Origin: a virus
Virus record (IMG/VR): IMGVR_UViG_3300042291_000228
Location: 38,329 to 102,328 of that record
Strand: one strand, 5' to 3'
DNA: 64,000 bases
In this document: in pieces, positions 38,868 to 52,546 of the stretch
How the letters are laid out: each line of letters opens with the position of its first letter
Position numbering within the stretch: the stretch's first letter is position 1
Notes under the pieces: generated by a model
Seen by the model: only the letters and a program-made list of their open reading frames with translations
Told to the model about the DNA's origin: nothing
The model's database searches: none
Translations under genes and position numbers: made by a program

Positions 38868-39806
38868 TTATCTACGTTGCTCGCTGAGCACATCGTACAT
38901 TTCAAATGCACCGCCCATACGCTCATAGACCATGCCAGCATAAACATCAGCCTTCATGCCTTCGCCAATCTTGGTTTTAGCAACACGTTGTGCCCAAGCC
39001 CACAATTGATTGTCTACGGGATCGATCTGTTGCTGGCCACCACTTTCAACAACCAGTGCCATCATTTCTTTAAATGATAGATTAGATTCAACTGATTCTT
39101 TAACTGTTTTCTTTTTTCCAAAGAATTTTTCTTGAGCAGCACTCATTCCCTTCTTGCCGTCTTTCTTGTCACCACCTTTGTCGCCAGCGGCTTTTTTCAT
39201 TGGCTCTTTCTTGTCACCGTCTTTGTCAAGATCTAAAAAGTCTGGCTTGGCACCTTCGTCCATGATCTTGGCCATTTTCTTTTTCTTATCTTCTTTTTTC
39301 TTCTTAGCGTCGGCAGCACTTTCTTCTTTCTTGGCTTCTACCATCTTCATGAACTTGCTTTTGAATTGTGGCTCAATGCTTTCTACTTTCTTGCCATCTT
39401 TAACACGAGTCACGGAACCCTTGCCGTGTGCTTTTTCATAGTCCTTGCTGTCTTTGGCATCGGCTTTGTCAGCTGCTTTGTCTTTTTCTTTGTCCGCAGC
39501 TGATTGTGATTTGGCCTTGCTAGCAGGTTCTGAATGTGGTTCATCACTGAAGCGATTGGGATTTTGTGTGTGTTTGGTTACGCCTTTCTTTGAACGATCA
39601 ATAGTTCCGCCAGTAGACGATTTTTCTTCTTTAACTTCTTCGTCTTTCTTTTTCTTGGCTTCTGCAACATAAGTTGTTTGTCCAGCTAGAACACGAAGTT
39701 GTGCATCTTCGTTGAGTTGCACAGCTTTGTCTAACACAGGGGCTGCAGGAGTTGTCGGAGGTGCTTCCATTCCGTCAAGTTTGCTTAGTATTGCTTTAAA
39801 GTCCAT
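38868..39806 (-). CDS. Lys/Asp/Glu-rich low-complexity virion-type protein
   Basis: A 312-residue protein. Residues about 50-230 are a long charged Lys/Glu/Asp/Ala stretch, probably disordered; the last 75 residues are ordered (NLSFKEMMALVVESGGQQ, LWAWAQRVAKTKIGEGMK). It contains DFLDLDKDGDKKEPMKKAA, a segment seen in other T4-like marine phages with a DxDxDG loop that could bind calcium. The motif KIGEG fits a prohead-protease site. Possibly a scaffold core or internal head protein. It overlaps no neighbour and ends at a strong terminator. Confidence 0.7.
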   Translation of the reverse strand: MDFKAILSKLDGMEAPPTTPAAPVLDKAVQLNEDAQLRVLAGQTTYVAEAKKKKDEEVKEEKSSTGGTIDRSKKGVTKHTQNPNRFSDEPHSEPASKAKSQSAADKEKDKAADKADAKDSKDYEKAHGKGSVTRVKDGKKVESIEPQFKSKFMKMVEAKKEESAADAKKKKEDKKKKMAKIMDEGAKPDFLDLDKDGDKKEPMKKAAGDKGGDKKDGKKGMSAAQEKFFGKKKTVKESVESNLSFKEMMALVVESGGQQQIDPVDNQLWAWAQRVAKTKIGEGMKADVYAGMVYERMGGAFEMYDVLSEQRR

Positions 39807-40124: not shown

Positions 40125-40132
40125 TATTTATC
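40125..40132 (-). promoter_or_regulatory. T4-type late promoter (GATAAATA), 5 bases from ATG
   Basis: Minus strand GATAAATA ends five bases before the ATG at 40119, overlapping the 3' end of the upstream gene. Confidence 0.55.
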
Positions 40133-40310
40133 TTCTTATAATAGATTCGTCGGAAGTCTTAGACTTCTTTTTAGTGGTTTTATTCTGTTTAAAACTGCCG
40201 CCAAATAGTGTACCTACATTAGAGCCAGTACCCCCTTTGATCAAAGTAGCCCCCATACCGGCACTTGTAGCACCTGCTGTAGCTGTTTCTAAAAGTTCTT
40301 TGATTTTCAT
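40128..40310 (-). CDS. Small Gly-rich protein with capsid-targeting-like N-terminus
   Basis: A 60-residue protein beginning MKIKELLETATAG, similar to the T4 capsid-targeting peptide (MKTYQEFIAE) with a possible protease site after LLE. The remainder is Gly/Thr/Ala-rich then Lys/Ser-rich. Use of ATG 40310 and not the frame start at 40334 is supported by this peptide and by the late motif ending five bases upstream. Predicted minor internal head protein or peptide. Confidence 0.6.
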   Translation of the reverse strand: MKIKELLETATAGATSAGMGATLIKGGTGSNVGTLFGGSFKQNKTTKKKSKTSDESIIRR

Positions 40311-40314
40311 ACAC

Positions 40315-40650
40315 TTATTTATTTTTTTTAGCACGGCCTGCTTTCATATTAGCTAGCCAGTGTGCTAGTTGTCCTTTGCGCCCGCCCTGTTTAGCAGTTT
40401 TACGTAAACTGCTTACACTAGCTTTAGTGTTAATGCCGTGACGTTTACTGTCGCCTTTGTCCTGCGGATTACGTCCATCAGCAAAGTTTTCGTGCTCAAT
40501 GCTTTCTCCGCCGCCGCCATCTCCAGACCCACTGTCTCCACTGTAGCCAGCATAGTATCCGTAGCCGCCGTAAGGGCCTGGTCCGTAAGCAGCCCAGCGA
40601 GGTTTACGCTTACGTTTCTTTCTTTCAACTATAAATTCTACAGCTCTCAT
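40315..40650 (-). CDS. Predicted internal head protein with capsid-targeting-like N-terminus
   Basis: A 111-residue basic protein beginning [19 protein letters not shown]: a T4-like capsid-targeting peptide with a predicted cleavage after EFIVE, then an Arg/Lys patch. Next comes a Gly/Tyr-rich low-complexity part, and finally a conserved block ([17 protein letters not shown], then [17 protein letters not shown]) known from other T4-like marine phages. A basic DNA-associated, packaged protein is inferred. ATGA overlap with the iron-sulfur carrier gene upstream. Confidence 0.68.
40316..40323 (-). promoter_or_regulatory. T4-type late promoter (AATAAATA), 5 bases from ATG
   Basis: Minus strand AATAAATA in an A-rich run, ending five bases before the ATG at 40310. 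It overlaps the last codons of the upstream gene. Confidence 0.55.
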
Positions 40651-41006
40651 TCGTGAAATTGATAATCGTCTTGGTAATTATCTGACACACTAAAACTACT
40701 ACCGCAACCGCAGGTTGTTTCGGCATTGGGATTTTTTATTACAAACTGACTGCCTGATAGGTCTTCTTTATAATCTATACTAGCACCTTGTAAATATTGC
40801 ATACTCATAGCATCGACTAATACTATGAAGTTGCCTACAGGAATTTCAAAATCGTCTTCATTATGTTCTTCGTCAAGAGTAAATCCGTAGCTCATCCCAC
40901 TACACCCGCCACCTTGAACAAACGTACGAAGTTTGAGATTTGGGTTGTTTTCTTCGCTAAGAAGATCTGTAATTTTAAATTGAGCACTTTCTGTAATTGT
41001 AATCAT
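40647..41006 (-). CDS. A-type iron-sulfur cluster carrier (HesB/IscA/ErpA-like)
   Basis: A 119-residue A-type carrier that holds and passes iron-sulfur clusters. The three conserved cysteines are present: Cys35 ([11 protein letters not shown]) and Cys99/Cys101 (TTCGCGSSF). Length is normal for the family; no targeting signal. AGGAG precedes the ATG. It sits among predicted capsid genes; the phage encodes at least three radical SAM enzymes that would need clusters. Similar genes occur in marine T4-like phages. Confidence 0.92.
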
Positions 41007-41204: not shown

Positions 41205-42518
41205 TTACATTCCACCGCCCACAAGGTCTCCTGGTCTAACTGGTTTGTTTTTCTTAGCCCCATCATTTCGCCACTGACCTTCTGGTCCTTCCTTGTGTCC
41301 AACCTTAGCGCCAGCAAATGGCATTTTAGTTCCTTCACCAACTTTAGTATCCATTTGTTTTAATAATTGTTGTGCTTTTTCAACACTGACCATGGGTCTC
41401 GGATGTTTGCCGTCTACTACAGACTGTAGATACTCTTTACTAAATCCTTTTGGTGCTTCTGCTTTTGCAGGAGCGTTGTCAGTTGCTTGTTGTGTGGCAA
41501 TAGGTTTACCTGTTAGGCGATTGATATTAGAATCTTGATCTCCAGTAACTCTAGCCTGTGCTCCACCTGCCCCTAATGCCATTGCCCCGGCAAGACCTAG
41601 ACCTGCAAGTTTAGAACCAAATCCTTCCTCTACGCCTTCGTTATTTTGTGTATCAGCCTGTGCTTGTTTAAAAACTTCTTGAGCTGAAAGGCCTGTTTGA
41701 TAACCACTTTCCATTCCGTATGCGTAACCGTAATCGTAGCCTTTTGCTACCCACGGATCGTATTCAGGATCGTCGCCGCCGATCATTATAGTAGTATCTT
41801 TATCAAATCTGCCGTCTTCTAATTCTTTCATCCACTCTGGTAACTGTCCTAATTTAAATGGTCCTTTAAATCCTAGTTTTTTTAATGCTGTTACAAGATT
41901 AGGCCTAATTGAATCTTCTACCACATCACCTTCCGCCACACCTTGGCTTTTTTGTGCTTTTTCTGTTGCAGAAATAGTGCGCCATAGATTATTCATTGGC
42001 CCTTCCATACTACGAGCTTCGCGTTCGCGATCTGTTAAATTCTGTTCACGATCAGCATACTGCCAATTGCTTCCACCTAGTGACTTATACTCTGCCTTCA
42101 TGCGTTCATACTCTGCCTTCAATTCTGGCAGCTTGGCAATGTTATCTGCCATCTGTTTGTCAGCAGTGGTCTTACGTGCAACTTCGTCGCGAGCCTTCAA
42201 TCGATTTAAACCTCGTTCTCTTTTATTGAAAGTGGCAAGGTTTTGCTTTTGTTTCTCAGGGTCGTTGTTAAACATTGCACCCATTTGACTCTGCGCTTTT
42301 TGCATTGCAGCTTTCTTACGATAGTCGCCTAGACTAACTTCATGTAGTGCAGATTCCATAGTGGCAATTTCTTTTTTGTGTTTAACGTCGCCTTGCTTCT
42401 CGGCCTTCTTCTTGTCTTTGTGTTGTCCAGCTTTGCCAGCCAGCGAAGCATTTTTAGCCACAAAGTTTCTAGGCTTTGATTCTTTTTTAAGTTCTATGAT
42501 AAATTCTTTTGCTTTCAT
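41205..42518 (-). CDS. Large predicted internal head protein with capsid-targeting peptide
   Basis: A 437-residue charged, mostly helical protein beginning MKAKEFIIELKKES, the closest match here to the T4 capsid-targeting peptide (MKTYQEFIAE). It also contains repeated candidate prohead-protease sites (SQGVAEGDV, NEGVEEGFG, TKVGEGTK) that would cut it into several pieces. After one lies an Ala/Gly-rich hydrophobic segment (LAGLGLAGAMALGAGGA), which could insert in membranes. The start at 42518 has AAGGA upstream. Probably packaged and ejected with the DNA. Confidence 0.65.
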   Translation of the reverse strand: MKAKEFIIELKKESKPRNFVAKNASLAGKAGQHKDKKKAEKQGDVKHKKEIATMESALHEVSLGDYRKKAAMQKAQSQMGAMFNNDPEKQKQNLATFNKRERGLNRLKARDEVARKTTADKQMADNIAKLPELKAEYERMKAEYKSLGGSNWQYADREQNLTDREREARSMEGPMNNLWRTISATEKAQKSQGVAEGDVVEDSIRPNLVTALKKLGFKGPFKLGQLPEWMKELEDGRFDKDTTIMIGGDDPEYDPWVAKGYDYGYAYGMESGYQTGLSAQEVFKQAQADTQNNEGVEEGFGSKLAGLGLAGAMALGAGGAQARVTGDQDSNINRLTGKPIATQQATDNAPAKAEAPKGFSKEYLQSVVDGKHPRPMVSVEKAQQLLKQMDTKVGEGTKMPFAGAKVGHKEGPEGQWRNDGAKKNKPVRPGDLVGGGM

Positions 42519-42528
42519 ACTTGATCCT

Positions 42529-43446
42529 TTAGTCCAGCCCATACCCATCACGGATAGCCATTAACACTTCGCTTACACTGGCTGCTGTTGTTGGCAATGT
42601 GTCTTGTTCACCGATATCTGGGCGATCGCCTTCCCATGTGCCTAGTGCATAGGTAAACATACCGTCGCCCTCATTGTCAATCATAACCATGTAATATTGA
42701 CTTTCGTCTTCCGCCCCTTTGGTACTGAACATAAAAGCATCGTCACCTTTACGCTGTGCCTTCCATCCCATTGCTCTCATTGCACTAGCAATCTTGTTAG
42801 CAACTTCTGGCCACGGTAATACATTGCCTAACGATGCTTCCGACACACCTTGTTCAAGCCACGGCTCAAGTCCTTGACGAACAGCAGAAAATACTTCATC
42901 AGCATCGCCTTGTAGTCCTGCTGGCAACCCTGTTTTAAACAATTCGAAGTCATTCACAATAGCAGCAGCTCGCATCTTGCTTGCGCTCATGCCTTCTGCA
43001 CCTTCTGCATCGGGATCTCTAGCACCACTGGATACAATCTTGATTGATTTGAGATTGTAATCAACACCGTTTTGTTTATTGAACAATTCTGTAAATGCCG
43101 GCACACGATCTGAGCCGCAGACAAAAACAACATTTTCAAAGCCCTGTTTTTCTAAATTCTGAAGAATTCCAATTGCAGTACCCACTGATGTATCTCCAAT
43201 GTCAATATTGGGAAATGCCTGCTGTATAAATCCCAGTTTGATATCAAAGGGCAATGGGTTTTCCAATCTTGTTTTATTCTTGCCAGTTGGTTTATGAGTT
43301 TGAGATACAAATAGAAAATGAGCATCGGCCTTTTGTTTCAAGATAGCATCAACTACTTTTTGATGCCCAATCGTGGGAGGGTTCATCCTTCCAAATGCAA
43401 CGGCCGCTGTCTTCCCCGATTGCTCAAAAAGTTCTAGAAGTCTCAT
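42529..43446 (-). CDS. Nucleotidyltransferase with capsid-targeting-like N-terminus
   Basis: A 305-residue protein. After MRLLELFEQSG, which resembles a capsid-targeting peptide, comes a HIGH-superfamily nucleotidyltransferase domain: AFGRMNPPTIGHQKV (the T/HxGH motif, about 17-31) and MSASKMRAAA (equivalent to the ISxTxxR motif). Relatives include NMN and other adenylyl-/cytidylyltransferases; substrate unknown. From about residue 200, after EQGVSEASLG (a possible protease site), a second domain follows. ATGA overlap with the upstream gene. It may be carried in the virion, like T4 Alt. Confidence 0.72.
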   Translation of the reverse strand: MRLLELFEQSGKTAAVAFGRMNPPTIGHQKVVDAILKQKADAHFLFVSQTHKPTGKNKTRLENPLPFDIKLGFIQQAFPNIDIGDTSVGTAIGILQNLEKQGFENVVFVCGSDRVPAFTELFNKQNGVDYNLKSIKIVSSGARDPDAEGAEGMSASKMRAAAIVNDFELFKTGLPAGLQGDADEVFSAVRQGLEPWLEQGVSEASLGNVLPWPEVANKIASAMRAMGWKAQRKGDDAFMFSTKGAEDESQYYMVMIDNEGDGMFTYALGTWEGDRPDIGEQDTLPTTAASVSEVLMAIRDGYGLD

Positions 43447-43781
43447 TGTTCGTAGTCGCCTTTTTCCATATGCTTTTCTTGTTCGGTGGCTATCATCTTG
43501 GCCAACTCTATTAGTTTTTCTTTAGGGAATTTGTCTTCGGCGCTTTCAATTTCAAACTTTTCACAGTATGCTTCTTTACAAGATTCTAAAGGACGCATAT
43601 AAATTTTATACGCATCTGGATGGCCTCGATGTTCTTTATGACGATTTATAGCAGGGAAAAAGTAATTTTTTAACACAGCATCGTCATTATCGATAAAGAA
43701 TTTTAAGTCGTTGGTCCAGTCTACGTCTTCTTGTTCTGAAGTAGGTGCTCCTATTGCACTAAACATTTCTCTTAATAACAT
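43443..43781 (-). CDS. Conserved phage protein in the late head-gene cluster
   Basis: A 112-residue acidic protein beginning MLLREMFSAIGAPTS; the first ten residues resemble a short targeting helix. The rest (WTNDLKFFIDNDDAVLKNYF, CKEAYCEKFEIE) has no recognised motif. ATG at 43781 shares one base with the previous stop (TAATG) and has AGGAG inside the upstream gene; a seven-codon longer frame is rejected. Head or scaffold role inferred from neighbours. Confidence 0.65.
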   Translation of the reverse strand: MLLREMFSAIGAPTSEQEDVDWTNDLKFFIDNDDAVLKNYFFPAINRHKEHRGHPDAYKIYMRPLESCKEAYCEKFEIESAEDKFPKEKLIELAKMIATEQEKHMEKGDYEQ

Positions 43782-44521
43782 TACCAGCTCCTGCAAGACC
43801 AATATCTAGCCTTGTGTCTAGGTCCCGGATTGGCACAATTATGTCTAGCACGGAAACTTTTTCTACGTGCTGGATTTGATTTCTTAATACGCATTTTTTT
43901 ATCGCCGAAGTTTACTTTGACAACATTGCCCTGCGGATTTTTAACATATACTTTAGATTTCTTTACATCACCGGCCATCTTCTTGCCCAGCTGAACTTCT
44001 CGACCTTGATACTTGGCTTCGTCTACATCAGCATCTTCTTTGTATGCTTTGCTGTATTTGTCTTTAAGTGCGCCAAGTTCTTTTTGGCTAGCACCATCGC
44101 GAGCTGCGGCTGCGGCTTTGGTCATGTATTCTTTACCGTGTTTCTTAACTCCGGTATAGTATTGAAGACCACTTTCTTCTACATCGTCTTCTTTGATCTT
44201 TTCGCAGTCGTTGACACGCTTGCCTGCGTTCTTGCCAGTACCGGGTTGTGTGCCAGTCTTTCTATAACCTTTCCAGCAGCTCTTAGGCCCAGCAACACCT
44301 TCTACAAGTTCACCTTCAAAAAATCGTACGCCTTCGTTGGTCAGCATTTCTAGGGCAGTGTCATCTAGTTCAACAACAATACCGTCTTCTAAAACTTCTA
44401 CTACGTGGGTAGAAATTTCAAAATCAGGACTAAAACTGATACCGAACTCATCTCCAATTTCTGGTGTATTAGATTCTTCTAAATTTTCTAGTATAGATAA
44501 TTTGTCTAAAAGGTCTCTCAT
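43781..44521 (-). CDS. Conserved late structural protein with ARHNC...YWSC C-terminus
   Basis: A 246-residue protein. The N-terminus (LSILENLEESN) offers candidate protease sites. The middle has CWKGYRKTGTQPGTGKNAG and a helical YMTKAAAAARDGASQKELG. The C-terminus, with RRKSFRARHNC and ARYWSCRSW, is a strongly conserved block I associate with large myoviruses; its Cys/His pattern could bind zinc. A late promoter lies 22 bases upstream with GAGG as ribosome-binding site. Virion or assembly role; details unknown. Confidence 0.72.
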   Translation of the reverse strand: MRDLLDKLSILENLEESNTPEIGDEFGISFSPDFEISTHVVEVLEDGIVVELDDTALEMLTNEGVRFFEGELVEGVAGPKSCWKGYRKTGTQPGTGKNAGKRVNDCEKIKEDDVEESGLQYYTGVKKHGKEYMTKAAAAARDGASQKELGALKDKYSKAYKEDADVDEAKYQGREVQLGKKMAGDVKKSKVYVKNPQGNVVKVNFGDKKMRIKKSNPARRKSFRARHNCANPGPRHKARYWSCRSW

Positions 44522-44543: not shown

Positions 44544-44551
44544 TATTTATC
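44544..44551 (-). promoter_or_regulatory. T4-type late promoter (GATAAATA)
   Basis: Minus strand GATAAATA 22 bases before the ATG at 44521, in the gap after the gene ending at 44564, with a normal GAGG ribosome-binding site between. Confidence 0.65.
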
Positions 44552-44941: not shown

Positions 44942-45619
44942 CTAGTATTTATCGACTACTATGTATTCATAGACCTTGCCCAACACCTGTGAATCACGCA
45001 TTTTCAACATCAACAAGGTGTTTGCATCTTCAACATACATATATCTTCGGTCCCAATACCAGTCTGTATTTTGAAACCAATATTTTACAGACTCTGAGAT
45101 TAAAATTCTATTCTGTTGGGTACCTAACCAAGCAAGATAGTTGTTTTTTGAATCTCTATTACCTTTCAATTTATGCGGTAATAGATAAATTTTGTATCTG
45201 TACTTGTTATGAGGTAATTTTTTTGTTAGAATAAAATCAGTATTTTCCAGCAGTTCTAAATTATTTCCTGTGGGTGCGTATCTATTTACGATAATAGATT
45301 CAAACTTTGATGATATTGTATCAAATATATCTGCATCGTTTGCATACAAATCAATAGTATTAGATTCAATGCGTTTGGCAAAGTCTTGCTGATTTAAACT
45401 TGATAAAAATGTAGTAAGCTCTAAAAAAGATATTTTATTTTTTAGAGCTTTGTGATGCGAAGAAAACACACTTTTAGTGTATGTTGCCGGACTTGTAAGA
45501 AAATTAATGGTTTCATTGTACCCGAGTAGTCTATACAAAGACACACCCGGGCAAAACAGTGTAATTTTATACAACCACTTGTTGTAAAATTTTCTTTTGG
45601 TAAGTTTAGGTTTCAGCAT
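44942..45619 (-). CDS. Unknown basic phage protein
   Basis: A 225-residue basic protein, Lys/Tyr/Asn-rich, beginning MLKPKLTKRKFYNKWLYKIT with a mixed alpha/beta body. No catalytic motif recognised. The ATG at 45619 lies within the end of clpA (14-base overlap), and its last codons (Asp-Lys-Tyr-stop) contain the late promoter of the next gene. A nucleic-acid-related role would fit its charge, but nothing proves it. Confidence 0.6.
   Translation of the reverse strand: MLKPKLTKRKFYNKWLYKITLFCPGVSLYRLLGYNETINFLTSPATYTKSVFSSHHKALKNKISFLELTTFLSSLNQQDFAKRIESNTIDLYANDADIFDTISSKFESIIVNRYAPTGNNLELLENTDFILTKKLPHNKYRYKIYLLPHKLKGNRDSKNNYLAWLGTQQNRILISESVKYWFQNTDWYWDRRYMYVEDANTLLMLKMRDSQVLGKVYEYIVVDKY
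44946..44953 (-). promoter_or_regulatory. T4-type late promoter (GATAAATA) inside the upstream coding end
   Basis: Minus strand GATAAATA is made by the Asp-Lys-Tyr codons at the end of the upstream gene and ends four bases before the ATG at 44941. Confidence 0.55.
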
Positions 45620-47927
45620 TTGATGTGTCAGCCGGTGCAATTAAAGCATTTTTCATTGCTCTCTTTTCAGCTTTAGTCAACGGTTTTGGAATTTCCTCAA
45701 CTACAAAATTCAAATCATCATCGACTACGTTGATCTTGACCAATCCACCCTCTTTCAAATCACCAAACAACACTCTACGACTCAATGGTGATTTGATCTT
45801 GTTGTCAATTAATCTTGCTAGAGGTCTAGCACCCATCTTTTTATCATAGCCCTTAACTGCCAACCACTTGGTTGTTTCTGCATTTATACTAATTTCAATA
45901 CCCTTGTCTTTTAACTGATTGTTTAGTTCTCCGACAAACTTCTTTACAATCTGTACAACAACTTCTTGACTGAGCTTGGTAAATTTAATCACAGCATCTA
46001 ATCGATTACGGAACTCAGGAGCAAAGAATTTTTTAATTGCCTTGTCATCTTCTCCGTCTTTTGATAAATCTCCAAATCCGATAGTATTGTTTTCATTGTC
46101 TCTAGCCCCAAGATTACTGGTCATAACAAGTATACAGTTACGTCCATCTGCTTGTTTGCCATTTGATCCTGTAACAAATCCATTGTCCATAAACTGCAAT
46201 AGAATATTGCTGACATCTGGATGTGCTTTTTCAATCTCGTCTAGCAATAGCACACAATTTGGTGTTTCCTGTAACTTGGTTATGAGTTGTCCGGCATTAT
46301 CTTCATAACCGACATATCCTGGAGGAGCACCGATTAATCTAGCCACTGAATGCTTTTCTTGATATTCACTCATATCAAATCTTACCAAGGGCATTGACAT
46401 TTTTTCACTGAGCTGTCTAGCAGTTTCAGTTTTGCCGCAGCCAGTTGGTCCAAGAAACAAGAAACTACCAATAGGTTTATTAGGAGTCTTCATTCCTGCC
46501 TGCGCCACAAATATCTTATCCAATAGATTATCTACAGCTTCGTCTTGACCAAACACAGCAGATTTCATACCGTTTTCTAGATCTGCAAGATTTTTGCTTT
46601 CTTTCTGTGCCACATTCTCCAACGGCATATTAATCATTTTGCTTAGTTCATAGGTAACCTGTTCTACATCAACAATTTGATCCATGCCTTCTTCGATAAC
46701 AGTGTCTTTGATTTTATATCTTGCGGCAGCACAGTCTAAAATGTCAATGGCCTTGTCCGGCAACTTTTTATCATTCATGTATTTCATTGACAGTTTTACA
46801 GCTTGATCAATAGCAGCATCTGTAATTTTTACATTGTGATGTTGCTCATAGTACTTACGAATACCTTTGATAATTTTAACGCTCAGTTCTGGAGTAGGCT
46901 CGTCAACTGTGACACGTTGGAATCGACGCATCAATGCACGATCCTTTTCAAAGTGCTTGCGATATTCTTCCCATGTAGTTGATGCAATTAATTTAATAAC
47001 ACCTTTTGTCAACATAGGCTTAAGCATATTGGCCATATCGTTGCTAGACTGATTAGATGCACCGGCACCTTGCATCATGTGAGCTTCATCGATAAACAAG
47101 ATAATCTTGCCTTTCTTTTCCAATGCAGTTAATACTGCCTTGATACGTTCTTCAAAGTCACCACGATACTTTGAACCAGCAAGTAATGCCGAGATATCAA
47201 GAGTGTAAACACTGTGGTCTTGAATAAACTTGGGAACTTTCTTTTCAAAGATCTTGCGGGCTAGTCCTTCGGCAATAGCAGTCTTGCCAACACCAGGATC
47301 GCCTACCATTAGCACATTACATTTACTGCGGCGAGCCAGTATCAATTGTATTTTTTCTAATTCTTCATCTCTTCCAATAACTGGATCTATCTTGCGTTGT
47401 TTGGCATGCAAACTTAAATTTGTACAGAATTGATTTAATATTTTTTCTACTTGATTTACATTCACTACTTGATGCTCGCTTTCTTCTTCTTCTTGAATTA
47501 TGTTTTCGTGAATATATTTCACAAACTTTTCTTTGTGTATTCCGCCTTTATTAAAGAAATAAAAGGCAAAACTATTTTTTTCACTTAGTATACTTGCAAT
47601 AACATCAAATATTTCTATCTTTTGTCGGCCACTGAACAAGACCTGACTGAAACAACGATTGAGAACTCTTTCTACAGAATGAGTTTTTTTTGGTTTTTCA
47701 ACGGCTGTATTTTTAATATCTTCAAGATTATTTTTGAGATAATGCTCTAGATTGGTTTTAATAAAATTAGCATCGGCACCGTATTGCTCTATGAGTTTGA
47801 ATGTTGGTTCATCACTCATCATACCAAATGCTAGATGTTCAATAGTGATATATTCGTGTGTTAGCTGTTTGGCAACTCCTACAGAAAATTCAAAGATATT
47901 TTGTAGACTTTGACTGGGTTCGATCAT
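45606..47927 (-). CDS. clpA: ClpA-type AAA+ unfoldase with ClpP-docking loop
   Basis: A 773-residue, full-length double-AAA+ ClpA homologue (E. coli ClpA is 758). A Clp N-domain-like region is at about 1-145; D1 has Walker A GDPGVGKT (209-216) and Walker B FIDEAH; D2 has Walker A GPTGCGKT (493-500) and Walker B LLLDEIEK. The tripeptide IGF at 616-618 in NTIGFGDL falls at the position of the E. coli ClpP-docking IGL loop, so it should dock on host ClpP. No phage ClpP is seen. It has a sigma70-type promoter and AAGGA. Confidence 0.93.
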   Translation of the reverse strand: MIEPSQSLQNIFEFSVGVAKQLTHEYITIEHLAFGMMSDEPTFKLIEQYGADANFIKTNLEHYLKNNLEDIKNTAVEKPKKTHSVERVLNRCFSQVLFSGRQKIEIFDVIASILSEKNSFAFYFFNKGGIHKEKFVKYIHENIIQEEEESEHQVVNVNQVEKILNQFCTNLSLHAKQRKIDPVIGRDEELEKIQLILARRSKCNVLMVGDPGVGKTAIAEGLARKIFEKKVPKFIQDHSVYTLDISALLAGSKYRGDFEERIKAVLTALEKKGKIILFIDEAHMMQGAGASNQSSNDMANMLKPMLTKGVIKLIASTTWEEYRKHFEKDRALMRRFQRVTVDEPTPELSVKIIKGIRKYYEQHHNVKITDAAIDQAVKLSMKYMNDKKLPDKAIDILDCAAARYKIKDTVIEEGMDQIVDVEQVTYELSKMINMPLENVAQKESKNLADLENGMKSAVFGQDEAVDNLLDKIFVAQAGMKTPNKPIGSFLFLGPTGCGKTETARQLSEKMSMPLVRFDMSEYQEKHSVARLIGAPPGYVGYEDNAGQLITKLQETPNCVLLLDEIEKAHPDVSNILLQFMDNGFVTGSNGKQADGRNCILVMTSNLGARDNENNTIGFGDLSKDGEDDKAIKKFFAPEFRNRLDAVIKFTKLSQEVVVQIVKKFVGELNNQLKDKGIEISINAETTKWLAVKGYDKKMGARPLARLIDNKIKSPLSRRVLFGDLKEGGLVKINVVDDDLNFVVEEIPKPLTKAEKRAMKNALIAPADTSNAET

Positions 47928-47955: not shown

Positions 47956-47984
47956 ATTTTAACAAATTATAAATCTATTGTCAA
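47956..47984 (-). promoter_or_regulatory. Sigma70-type promoter for clpA
   Basis: Minus strand TTGACA (47979-47984), 17 bases, TAAAAT (47956-47961). The -35 overlaps the dnaJ-like stop codon. Confidence 0.6.
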
Positions 47985-48811
47985 ATAAATTTTAACTTTG
48001 TTTGTTCAACAGCATCTTTTTGTTCAGAGTTTAAATTCTTTGGAATTTCTATCTGTACTTTAATCAACAAATTGCCCCTGACCTTGGTTCGCATATTAGG
48101 TAAACCTTCTCCACGACAGCTTAATACAGTGTCAGGTTGTGTGCCTGCTGGAATACCTATTGTCAATGTTTTTTTGTCAATGGTTTCTATAGTTATTTCA
48201 GTCCCCAGTATAGCATCCCAGGGAGAAATAAATTTCTTTATCATCAACATGTCGCCCTGTCTTTGAAACACAGAATGTTCTCTGACCATTATATTAACAA
48301 TCAAATCTCCCGGAGGCACATCTTTTAAGGTGTGTTCTCCCATACCTCTATAACGTATTTGTTGTCCATTTTCTATACCCGGCGGTACTTCAATGTTCAC
48401 TAGTCGTTTACTACCACTAGGAATTCCAATTTCTGCATCTATCACTTTTCCTTTAAGAATGTCTTCGAGCGTAACTTCAATGTTTACATTTAATGTTTTG
48501 TTTTTTCTTACTGGGCGCCCACCAAACCCAAAATTACTAAAGACATCTTCAAAGTTTCCTGTGTTGAAATGAAATTCAAACGGACTTCCTTGCCTATAAC
48601 TAGTATGTTGAGCATTGGGATCTACTCCCATATCGAACATCTGTTTCTTTTGAGGGTCACTGAGTGTTTCGTATGCCTCAGTTACTTCTTTAAATTTCTT
48701 CTCATCGCCACCGCGATCAGGATGGTGTTTCATGGCCATCTTTCTGTAGGCAGCTTTGATATCTGCTTCCGAAGCAGATTTTGATATACCAAGTGTATTA
48801 TAATAATCCAT
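47981..48811 (-). CDS. DnaJ-family co-chaperone (CbpA-type, no zinc finger)
   Basis: A 276-residue type II J-protein: J domain at 1-67 with the HPD motif (KHHPDRGGDEKKF), a Gly/Phe-rich linker (FGFGG), then two C-terminal substrate-binding domains (LEDILKGKVIDAEI, GDLIVNIMVREHSVF, GRCN-type sites absent). The four-CxxCxGxG zinc region of DnaJ is missing, as in CbpA. It would recruit host DnaK. It lies directly upstream of clpA in the same direction. Confidence 0.9.
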   Translation of the reverse strand: MDYYNTLGISKSASEADIKAAYRKMAMKHHPDRGGDEKKFKEVTEAYETLSDPQKKQMFDMGVDPNAQHTSYRQGSPFEFHFNTGNFEDVFSNFGFGGRPVRKNKTLNVNIEVTLEDILKGKVIDAEIGIPSGSKRLVNIEVPPGIENGQQIRYRGMGEHTLKDVPPGDLIVNIMVREHSVFQRQGDMLMIKKFISPWDAILGTEITIETIDKKTLTIGIPAGTQPDTVLSCRGEGLPNMRTKVRGNLLIKVQIEIPKNLNSEQKDAVEQTKLKFI

Positions 48812-51820: not shown

Positions 51821-52546
51821 TTATTCTCCTCTTAACTTTTCTAATTTGGCAATGTAGTTGGCCATCATGTGATCAAACACGCCAATATACTTTTGACCTT
51901 TTGCCCTGGCTTTCAGTCTACTGCGGGCCATGTCTTTTACTCGTTGCCAAGGAGTTAGATCTCTAAACTCACCATTGAAGTTCATGTACTTGTGTGTGCC
52001 GTGATGATCGAAACCCATGAGTCTAAAAGGAACCTTGGTCACATCATCGCAGTTGTTCTGTACTCTATAATGTTCAACAGTCACACTCTTAACAAATGCC
52101 TTATCACCTACTCTAGGCGAGCCAAATGTTACCAACGCAACCACACGATCCTGCATACGACTAGCAGCAATGGTTGCCATAGCAGCACCTAGGCTGTGTC
52201 CAGTTACATATACATTACCTGGATTGGCTTCTAGTGCAGCAGTGATACTGGGCCATAGTTTGTTGATTTCGCCTTTGAAGCCAACATGTACCTTGCCGCC
52301 ACAGGCTTCGATGTTCTTACCAGACTTTAGGTCTGCCAACACATCTGACTTTTCAGTTACCTCAGTGCCTCTAAATGACAACACGGTAATAGTACCGTTG
52401 GTCAATAGATATGCCTGTGCCCCGTTGATGTCAAAGAATTGAATAATATTGTATCCCAAGGCTTTGAACTTGGCAGTGGCGGTTTTAGGATTGTCATAGG
52501 TAGTTTGCGCTATGTTGGCAAACTCTAATAGTAGTTGTGTTTTCAT
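51821..52546 (-). CDS. Class 3 (fungal-type) lipase
   Basis: A 241-residue alpha/beta hydrolase of the lipase class 3 family. The nucleophile elbow is TGHSLGAAMA (Ser118). NNCDDVTKVPF supplies the catalytic Asp (167 or 168), and GFDHHGTHKYMNF the His (181 or 182), the same order as fungal lipases. LSFRGTE near 57-63 provides the oxyanion hole. No signal peptide, so it would reach membranes through the holin or act at the inner face. It probably degrades phospholipid or acyl glycan during lysis. Unusual in a lysis cassette. Confidence 0.85.
   Translation of the reverse strand: MKTQLLLEFANIAQTTYDNPKTATAKFKALGYNIIQFFDINGAQAYLLTNGTITVLSFRGTEVTEKSDVLADLKSGKNIEACGGKVHVGFKGEINKLWPSITAALEANPGNVYVTGHSLGAAMATIAASRMQDRVVALVTFGSPRVGDKAFVKSVTVEHYRVQNNCDDVTKVPFRLMGFDHHGTHKYMNFNGEFRDLTPWQRVKDMARSRLKARAKGQKYIGVFDHMMANYIAKLEKLRGE

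Follow-up and report, generated by a model that had tools for sequence, protein, structure and literature searches.

A tagged nucleotidyltransferase polyprotein of a T4-like phage as a probable head cargo protein built from exchangeable modules

The 305-aa protein encoded at positions 42529-43446 of the DNA analyzed here is probably a head cargo protein like the internal proteins of T4, packaged in the head and delivered to the cell as an enzyme. This DNA, called the window below, is a 64-kb stretch corresponding to positions 38,329-102,328 of an IMG/VR virus record that totals 102,328 bases. The phage is T4-like, and its record encodes a T4-type portal (E 9e-108) as well as a phage-family DNA polymerase and clamp loader. 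A first-pass annotation of the sequence had proposed that the nucleotidyltransferase may be injected with the DNA and could act at once on NAD, coenzymes or host defence molecules, as T4 Alt acts on RNA polymerase. A good inferential case can be made for delivery with the DNA, since the targeting-like start of the protein, the protease and cut sites of relatives, a late-promoter-like motif and the presence of homologs in published virions all point to it. From sequence, we strongly infer packaging in this phage; virion detection was achieved by others, in homologs. The delivery route of Alt fits but its chemistry does not, and no result singled out host RNA polymerase or any defence molecule as the target.

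All four features named in that annotation were found in the protein: MRLLELFEQ (residues 1-9), GRMNPPTIGH (19-28), SASKMR (154-159) and GVSEA (200-204). They are placed on the window with the neighboring features in Table 1.

Table 1. Positions of the tagged polyprotein, its parts and neighboring features in the window (↓, predicted cut)
Feature	Position	Strand	Basis or remark
CDS of tagged nucleotidyltransferase polyprotein, 305 aa	42529..43446	-	ATG start
Capsid-targeting-like peptide MRLLELFE, residues 1-8; predicted cut after E8 (LFE↓Q)	43423..43446	-	conservation, IPIII-like pattern
HIGH-superfamily nucleotidyltransferase core, residues 9-197	42856..43422	-	model, fold, dN/dS <0.1
GRMNPPTIGH, HIGH motif, residues 19-28	43363..43392	-	G19, R20, N22, P23, T25, G27, H28 invariant
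SASKMR, second active-site motif, residues 154-159	42970..42987	-	S154, K157 invariant
GVSEA, predicted prohead-protease site between modules, residues 200-204	42835..42849	-	phi-x-E contexts, linker
Exchangeable C-terminal module, residues 204-305	42532..42837	-	swapped among proteins
First gene of probable operon	43781..44521	-	C-terminal module within Melnitz-3 nucleotidyltransferase polyprotein, E 5.7e-14
Companion cargo polyprotein, MKAKEFIIE at internal ATG; predicted sites GVAE↓G, GVEE↓G, KVGE↓G	41205..42518	-	
Signal-peptide-like segment directly after GVEE↓ of the 41205-42518 protein	41553..41624	-	
Companion protein, start MRAVEFIVE	40315..40650	-	
Companion protein MKIKELLE↓TATAGATSAGM	40128..40310	-	copy of capsid junction YLSE↓SATAGATSAGN
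Lysine-rich protein	38868..39806	-	module common with S-SCSM1 ORF92 (annotated virion protein), E 1.8e-9
ATAAATA, late-promoter-like	44544..44550	-	23 nt ahead of start at 44521

The reading frame is a real gene, since it matched two PHROG cytidyltransferase families (E 6e-50, over residues 6-194, and E 3e-34), relatives of the enzyme were found by tblastn in 524 of 50,697 phage records and also at 43 loci in IMG/VR, and dN/dS of the core was low (0.030-0.080 in 15 of 16 comparisons, with saturation in the remaining one). The tblastn relatives came mostly from T4-like cyanophages, with others from phages of Methylophilales, Stenotrophomonas, Klebsiella, Cronobacter, Escherichia and Vibrio. The Pfam model CTP_transf_like scored the 305-aa protein slightly below its cut-off (17.4 vs 21 bits).

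Members of the HIGH superfamily are defined by an (H/T)xGH motif and an SSTxxR-like motif. Both have their counterparts here, TIGH and SASKMR, and both were kept across an alignment of 65 rows. Of these rows, 58 came from the 80 best among 595 relatives, after exclusion of two that contained a stop codon and of others considered redundant. In this alignment 18 columns were invariant, including residues of both motifs, and A155, S156 and R159 were kept at 90% or more. Judged by these invariant columns, the active site on which the idea of an injected enzyme depended looks intact. A structural model of residues 1-197 had a mean pLDDT of 88.9 with a low-confidence start, and comparisons with Foldseek and VIA-align assign the modeled core to the Rossmann-like fold of the family. 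The full-length model of 305 aa (pLDDT 66.4) was used only to locate low-confidence stretches.

The N-terminal peptide resembles the start of T4 internal proteins. T4 IPII and IPIII both start with MKTYQEFIAE, a tag whose first ten residues are reported to be enough for targeting, with residues 4 and 7 important for targeting and residues 8 and 10 for cutting (PMC9026906). MRLLELFE is two residues shorter, and an IPIII-like regular expression fits IPII, IPIII, P0001 and three neighbors; the starts of Alt and of S-CREM2 gp154 fall outside it. Residues 6-8 read (L/I)FE in 43 of 43 IMG/VR loci when inspected by eye, and F7 and E8 were invariant in 25 of 25 rows of a second alignment. These two observations make chance an inadequate explanation of the tag and bear out the earlier suggestion of a targeting-like peptide. 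The first 27 nucleotides of the gene vary at 3 to 11 places across the 16 comparisons while the tag residues are kept, and residues 1-8 had pLDDT values below 50 in the full-length model.

Similar starts are clustered around the enzyme gene. Across the record, an IPIII-like start was present in 6 of 110 greedy gene calls, compared with 1 of 486 internal methionines. When each gene was taken from its longest start, four fitted the pattern, whereas 2000 shuffles averaged 0.068 and never exceeded 2. This test is only descriptive because the pattern was written after some of the tags had been seen. Four of the six starts lie within 3.4 kb (42529-43446, 41205-42518, 40315-40650 and 40128-40310), and the esterase/lipase-like protein at 51821-52546 is a poor fit among the six. 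In the neighborhood loci such starts precede many unrelated bodies, giving 71 non-redundant proteins, of which three, evidently not cargo, were discarded ahead of the boundary and apolar-stretch tests described below.

Past about residue 197 the relatives diverge and carry varied modules, which mostly follow a (V/I/M/L)xE site. The full-length model placed a low-confidence linker at residues 200-209. The second domain that had been noticed after GVSEA is indeed a separate module, as other modules replace it in many relatives. It was preceded by phi-x-E in 8 of 9 distinct contexts (GVSE, GVAE, EVKE, GMTE, GVTE), and was also found behind a quite different nucleotidyltransferase (loci L038-L044) and in a protein of locus L165 where no nucleotidyltransferase motif was seen. 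Compared over in-register codons with its counterpart in L003, it gave a dS of 0.69 and a dN of 0.030.

An all-against-all BLAST of the 68 remaining tagged proteins defined 83 module boundaries. (VILM)xE was present within 8 residues of 45 of the 83, against 18.1 expected and a maximum of 30 in 2000 random placements, whereas controls with aspartate or lysine in place of glutamate showed no rise (17 vs 14.7 and 22 vs 23.3, respectively). Two other patterns were also more frequent, E.(VILM) (40 vs 21.0) and (AGST).E (39 vs 22.8), so that part of the boundary signal comes from E-rich linkers. Given the glutamate, a hydrophobic residue at position -2 was a weak signal: 50 of 179 cases close to a boundary had one, compared with 167 of the 843 at other places (p 0.02). 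A table of eleven module families, chosen by eye and with a duplicate regular expression left out, had phi-x-E in 53 of 67 contexts and E in 63 of 67; family PFAGAKVGHKEG, with 0/7 at the fixed offset, was left out of this table, and the count is 53/74 when it is included.

On the enzyme side, a site lies 7-10 residues ahead of the FGR motif in 77 of 92 distinct enzyme contexts, among them 19 of the 23 where the enzyme is internal. Control windows for these 23 gave 1, 0, 4, 4, 16 and 1, the value of 16 being for 40-43 residues; the 23 amount to few independent cases because most share one architecture. No site was found within 3-16 residues in 14 of the 92 contexts, 11 of which were short untagged starts. 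The 68 tagged proteins also contained 15 internal apolar stretches of 14 residues, and 12 of these were located no more than 20 residues past a phi-x-E (random mean 3.8, maximum 10), a count that overstates independence because the stretches belong to few families. Many have a basic residue ahead and AxA behind, as in signal peptides. Signal-peptide-like segments were seen right behind predicted sites in the window (41553-41624, minus strand) and in loci L017, L020, L026, L033 and L034, the last two having been spotted by eye.

The protease expected to cut such sites was sought in the head genes. The gp21-type protease (PF03420) is absent from the phage's own record, and since that record ends beside the portal, the protease and capsid genes would lie beyond it. 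A portal was found in 6 of 11 records (this one included), PF03420 in 5 of the 11, all five with a portal, and gp23 in 5 of the 6 records searched. Three head regions encode, besides the portal, a small protein, an acidic protein, the protease, a scaffold-like protein and the capsid protein. The small protein starts with MKLLEFFYF, MILRELFYF or MLLLEFLYF, and the scaffold-like protein is rich in phi-x-E sites. The capsid proteins carry the junction KYL(S/A)E↓SATAGATSAGN, and their first ten mature residues recur in the cargo, both at tag ends and at internal junctions, with phi-x-E preceding this copy in 9 of 9 distinct contexts. In T4 gp23, LTE is found at residue 65, a position that matches the propeptide length given in PMC9026906. 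Of the evidence on cut sites and modules, the capsid junction gives the strongest link.

ATAAATA is the core of T4-type late promoters; in the window it is half as frequent as expected (13 vs 26.2), and 10 of the 13 copies are located 3-60 nt upstream of a possible start, compared with 5.9% expected. Late expression of the cargo run, with one such motif ahead of its probable first gene (Table 1), fits a protein destined for the virion. As a separate observation, the Melnitz-3 nucleotidyltransferase (L069 4995-6947), a 650-residue protein annotated as hypothetical, includes the module that is encoded on its own at 43781-44521 of the window.

Homologs of the enzyme have been found in purified phage particles. 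S-SCSM1 ORF91, named NMNAT, was identified by mass spectrometry in purified virions (PMC9602691) and is 39% identical to the 305-aa protein (E 1e-38). Virion mass spectrometry also yielded 2 peptides of S-SZBM1_140 (PMC9146016; 37% identity, E 1e-24) and 3 peptides of S-CREM2 gp154 (PMC10665884; 31% identity, E 3e-23), and an S-CBWM1 protein is cited in two of these three papers. The three homologs have tag-like starts (MKSFLQFLKEA in S-SCSM1, MRFRQFIIEA in S-SZBM1 and MKNFSSFLTEA in S-CREM2) that resemble the T4 tag. The neighbors of ORF91 in S-SCSM1 (ORF89, 90, 92 and 93) are likewise annotated as virion proteins. In one of them, the small ORF93 (L067 5508-5717), the C-terminal sequence RTFKEFLEYIE looks tag-like, and the S-SM2 counterpart has a similar end.

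These results were weighed against other explanations. The protein might be an ordinary late cytoplasmic enzyme that supplies NAD or CoA, its traces in virions being carry-over and its N-terminus simply the start of the fold, as the few peptides in S-SZBM1 and S-CREM2 virions and the 11 of 92 enzyme contexts that begin untagged at the first strand would allow; we consider this quite improbable because the tag is modeled with low confidence, as if disordered, is kept despite synonymous change and is common to unrelated neighbors, and because a homolog appears in three published virion sets. Alternatively, the protein might be packaged through its tag and enter the cell whole as a two-domain protein, the C-terminal junctions being uncut acidic linkers that favor recombination. 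Such linkers would account for the general enrichment of E at boundaries and for the weak hydrophobic signal at -2, but not for the site and about ten following residues that capsid and some cargo junctions share, nor for the flat aspartate and lysine controls; the 7-10 residue distance also stays constant between contexts with the enzyme in first place and those with it internal, although the 23 internal cases are mostly of one architecture. We regard uncut linkers as unlikely, and the reading in which the protein is packaged, cut and delivered as an enzyme is retained.

The chemistry of the enzyme is less certain than its delivery. Tentatively, we take NMN or NaMN as the likeliest acceptor of the adenylyl group, a choice that we would put slightly short of even; it was made because most members matched the NadD/NadR models, if weakly. 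The NCBIfam models naming specific functions were NadD for 35 of the 65 members, NadR for 22 and CoaD for 7, all weak matches, and the 305-aa protein itself stayed below the curated NadD/NadR/NadM family cut-offs (18-19 bits vs 112 and 164). A sequence search of the PDB returned three weak matches, the best (E 0.11) to a nicotinamide-nucleotide adenylyltransferase. By fold, PPAT is equally close to the modeled core: the best VIA-align matches were PPAT 3pxu (Z 14.1, rmsd 3.1, 153 aligned) and NadD 5db4 (Z 13.7, rmsd 2.9, 156 aligned), which tie, and the structures were mostly PPAT and NadD/NadM among the matches listed. A PPAT-like reaction or another small-molecule substrate is an alternative. 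On the earlier suggestion of action on NAD or coenzymes, the profiles weakly favor NMN/NaMN, while the fold leaves PPAT and NadD level. A glycerol-3-phosphate cytidylyltransferase for cell-wall polymers, which the annotation tradition of "cytidyltransferase" would suggest and which the S-SZBM1 authors mention for homologs while calling the function unclear (PMC9146016), is highly improbable given that the family and structural matches just described name NadD, NadR, NadM, CoaD and PPAT.

Two further candidates were set aside. No match to the NAMPT family was found in the 11 records, several of which are fragments, leaving no complete NAD route of the phage in view, and complete NAD salvage was rejected on this account. 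Host RNA polymerase or a defence molecule as target was likewise dropped, PADLOC having assigned 0 defence families to 7 window proteins.

The preferred reading of packaging and delivery can be written as a sequence of steps. The tagged polyprotein would be made late, and its first 8-9 residues would carry it into the prohead core, as in T4. A gp21-type prohead protease would then remove the tag by cutting after LFE8, and a second cut after GVSE203 would free the nucleotidyltransferase from its C-terminal module. Both pieces would remain among the DNA of the mature head and, by analogy with T4 internal proteins, would pass into the newly infected cell. There the enzyme may act before any phage gene is expressed. 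If the substrate is NMN or NaMN, adenylyl transfer could keep up NAD early in infection. A broader reading takes the whole as a modular injection cassette, with swappable effector modules between protease sites and signal segments unmasked by cutting; taken jointly, these propositions are speculative and rather doubtful. Recombination would move modules from one polyprotein to another, and their release would happen only within the prohead. Some modules start with a signal-like segment directly behind the predicted cut, so cutting would unmask a secretion signal, and an injected module could reach the membrane or periplasm by a path that the uncut precursor could not take in the producing cell.

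The authors of the S-SCSM1 and S-CREM2 papers (PMC9602691, PMC10665884) have already put forward that such enzymes are carried and delivered, so the delivery idea itself is not new. What is added here is the T4-type tag together with swappable modules between predicted protease sites; our searches of the open-access literature turned up neither a tag on these enzymes nor cargo modules exchanged between such sites. Like T4 IPI-IPIII and Alt, the proteins have a short capsid-targeting peptide that ends in phi-x-E, unrelated bodies behind a common tag, a gp21-type protease (here in relatives) and presumed injection with the DNA. Unlike the T4 internal proteins, the window cargo couples a nucleotidyltransferase to exchangeable modules through additional phi-x-E sites, and its tag has 8-9 residues instead of 10. 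S-SCSM1 ORF91, S-SZBM1_140 and S-CREM2 gp154 belong to the same enzyme family (31-39% identity), come from T4-like phages and have a tag-like start, but in the window protein the tag directly precedes the enzyme and the C-terminal module is different, whereas in S-SCSM1 and S-SM2 the tag is followed by a long linker.

Polyvalent phage proteins are similarly multi-domain, predicted to be carried in virions and early-acting (PMC5512222), although the window protein has a short tag in front and predicted T4-type protease sites between its modules; the NTases named in the relevant passages of that paper are of the Pol-beta and not the HIGH type. With NadD/NadM/NadR and PPAT (CoaD) the enzyme has in common the fold and both active-site motifs, but identity in structural alignment is 11-17%, its profile scores lie far below the curated family cut-offs, and it has no fused Nudix or kinase domain. 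If the proposal is right, NMNAT-like enzymes would reach cyanophage virions by the T4 internal-protein route, and the rule of a short tag and phi-x-E sites would offer a way to recognize injected effectors among many unannotated phage genes. The questions of what is injected by phages, and of the need for an adenylyltransferase in the first minutes, would then become directly testable.

Other genes were noted around the cargo run. An A-type Fe-S carrier (PF01521, E 3.3e-19) is encoded inside it at 40647-41006, on the minus strand. Just upstream of the cargo genes are a Clp-type AAA+ ATPase (45606-47927) and a DnaJ-like protein (47981-48811), also on the minus strand. At the left edge of the window, a single ORF of 4918 codons (G000:C1:23633-38389) ends just inside and is followed by tail-fibre-like genes.
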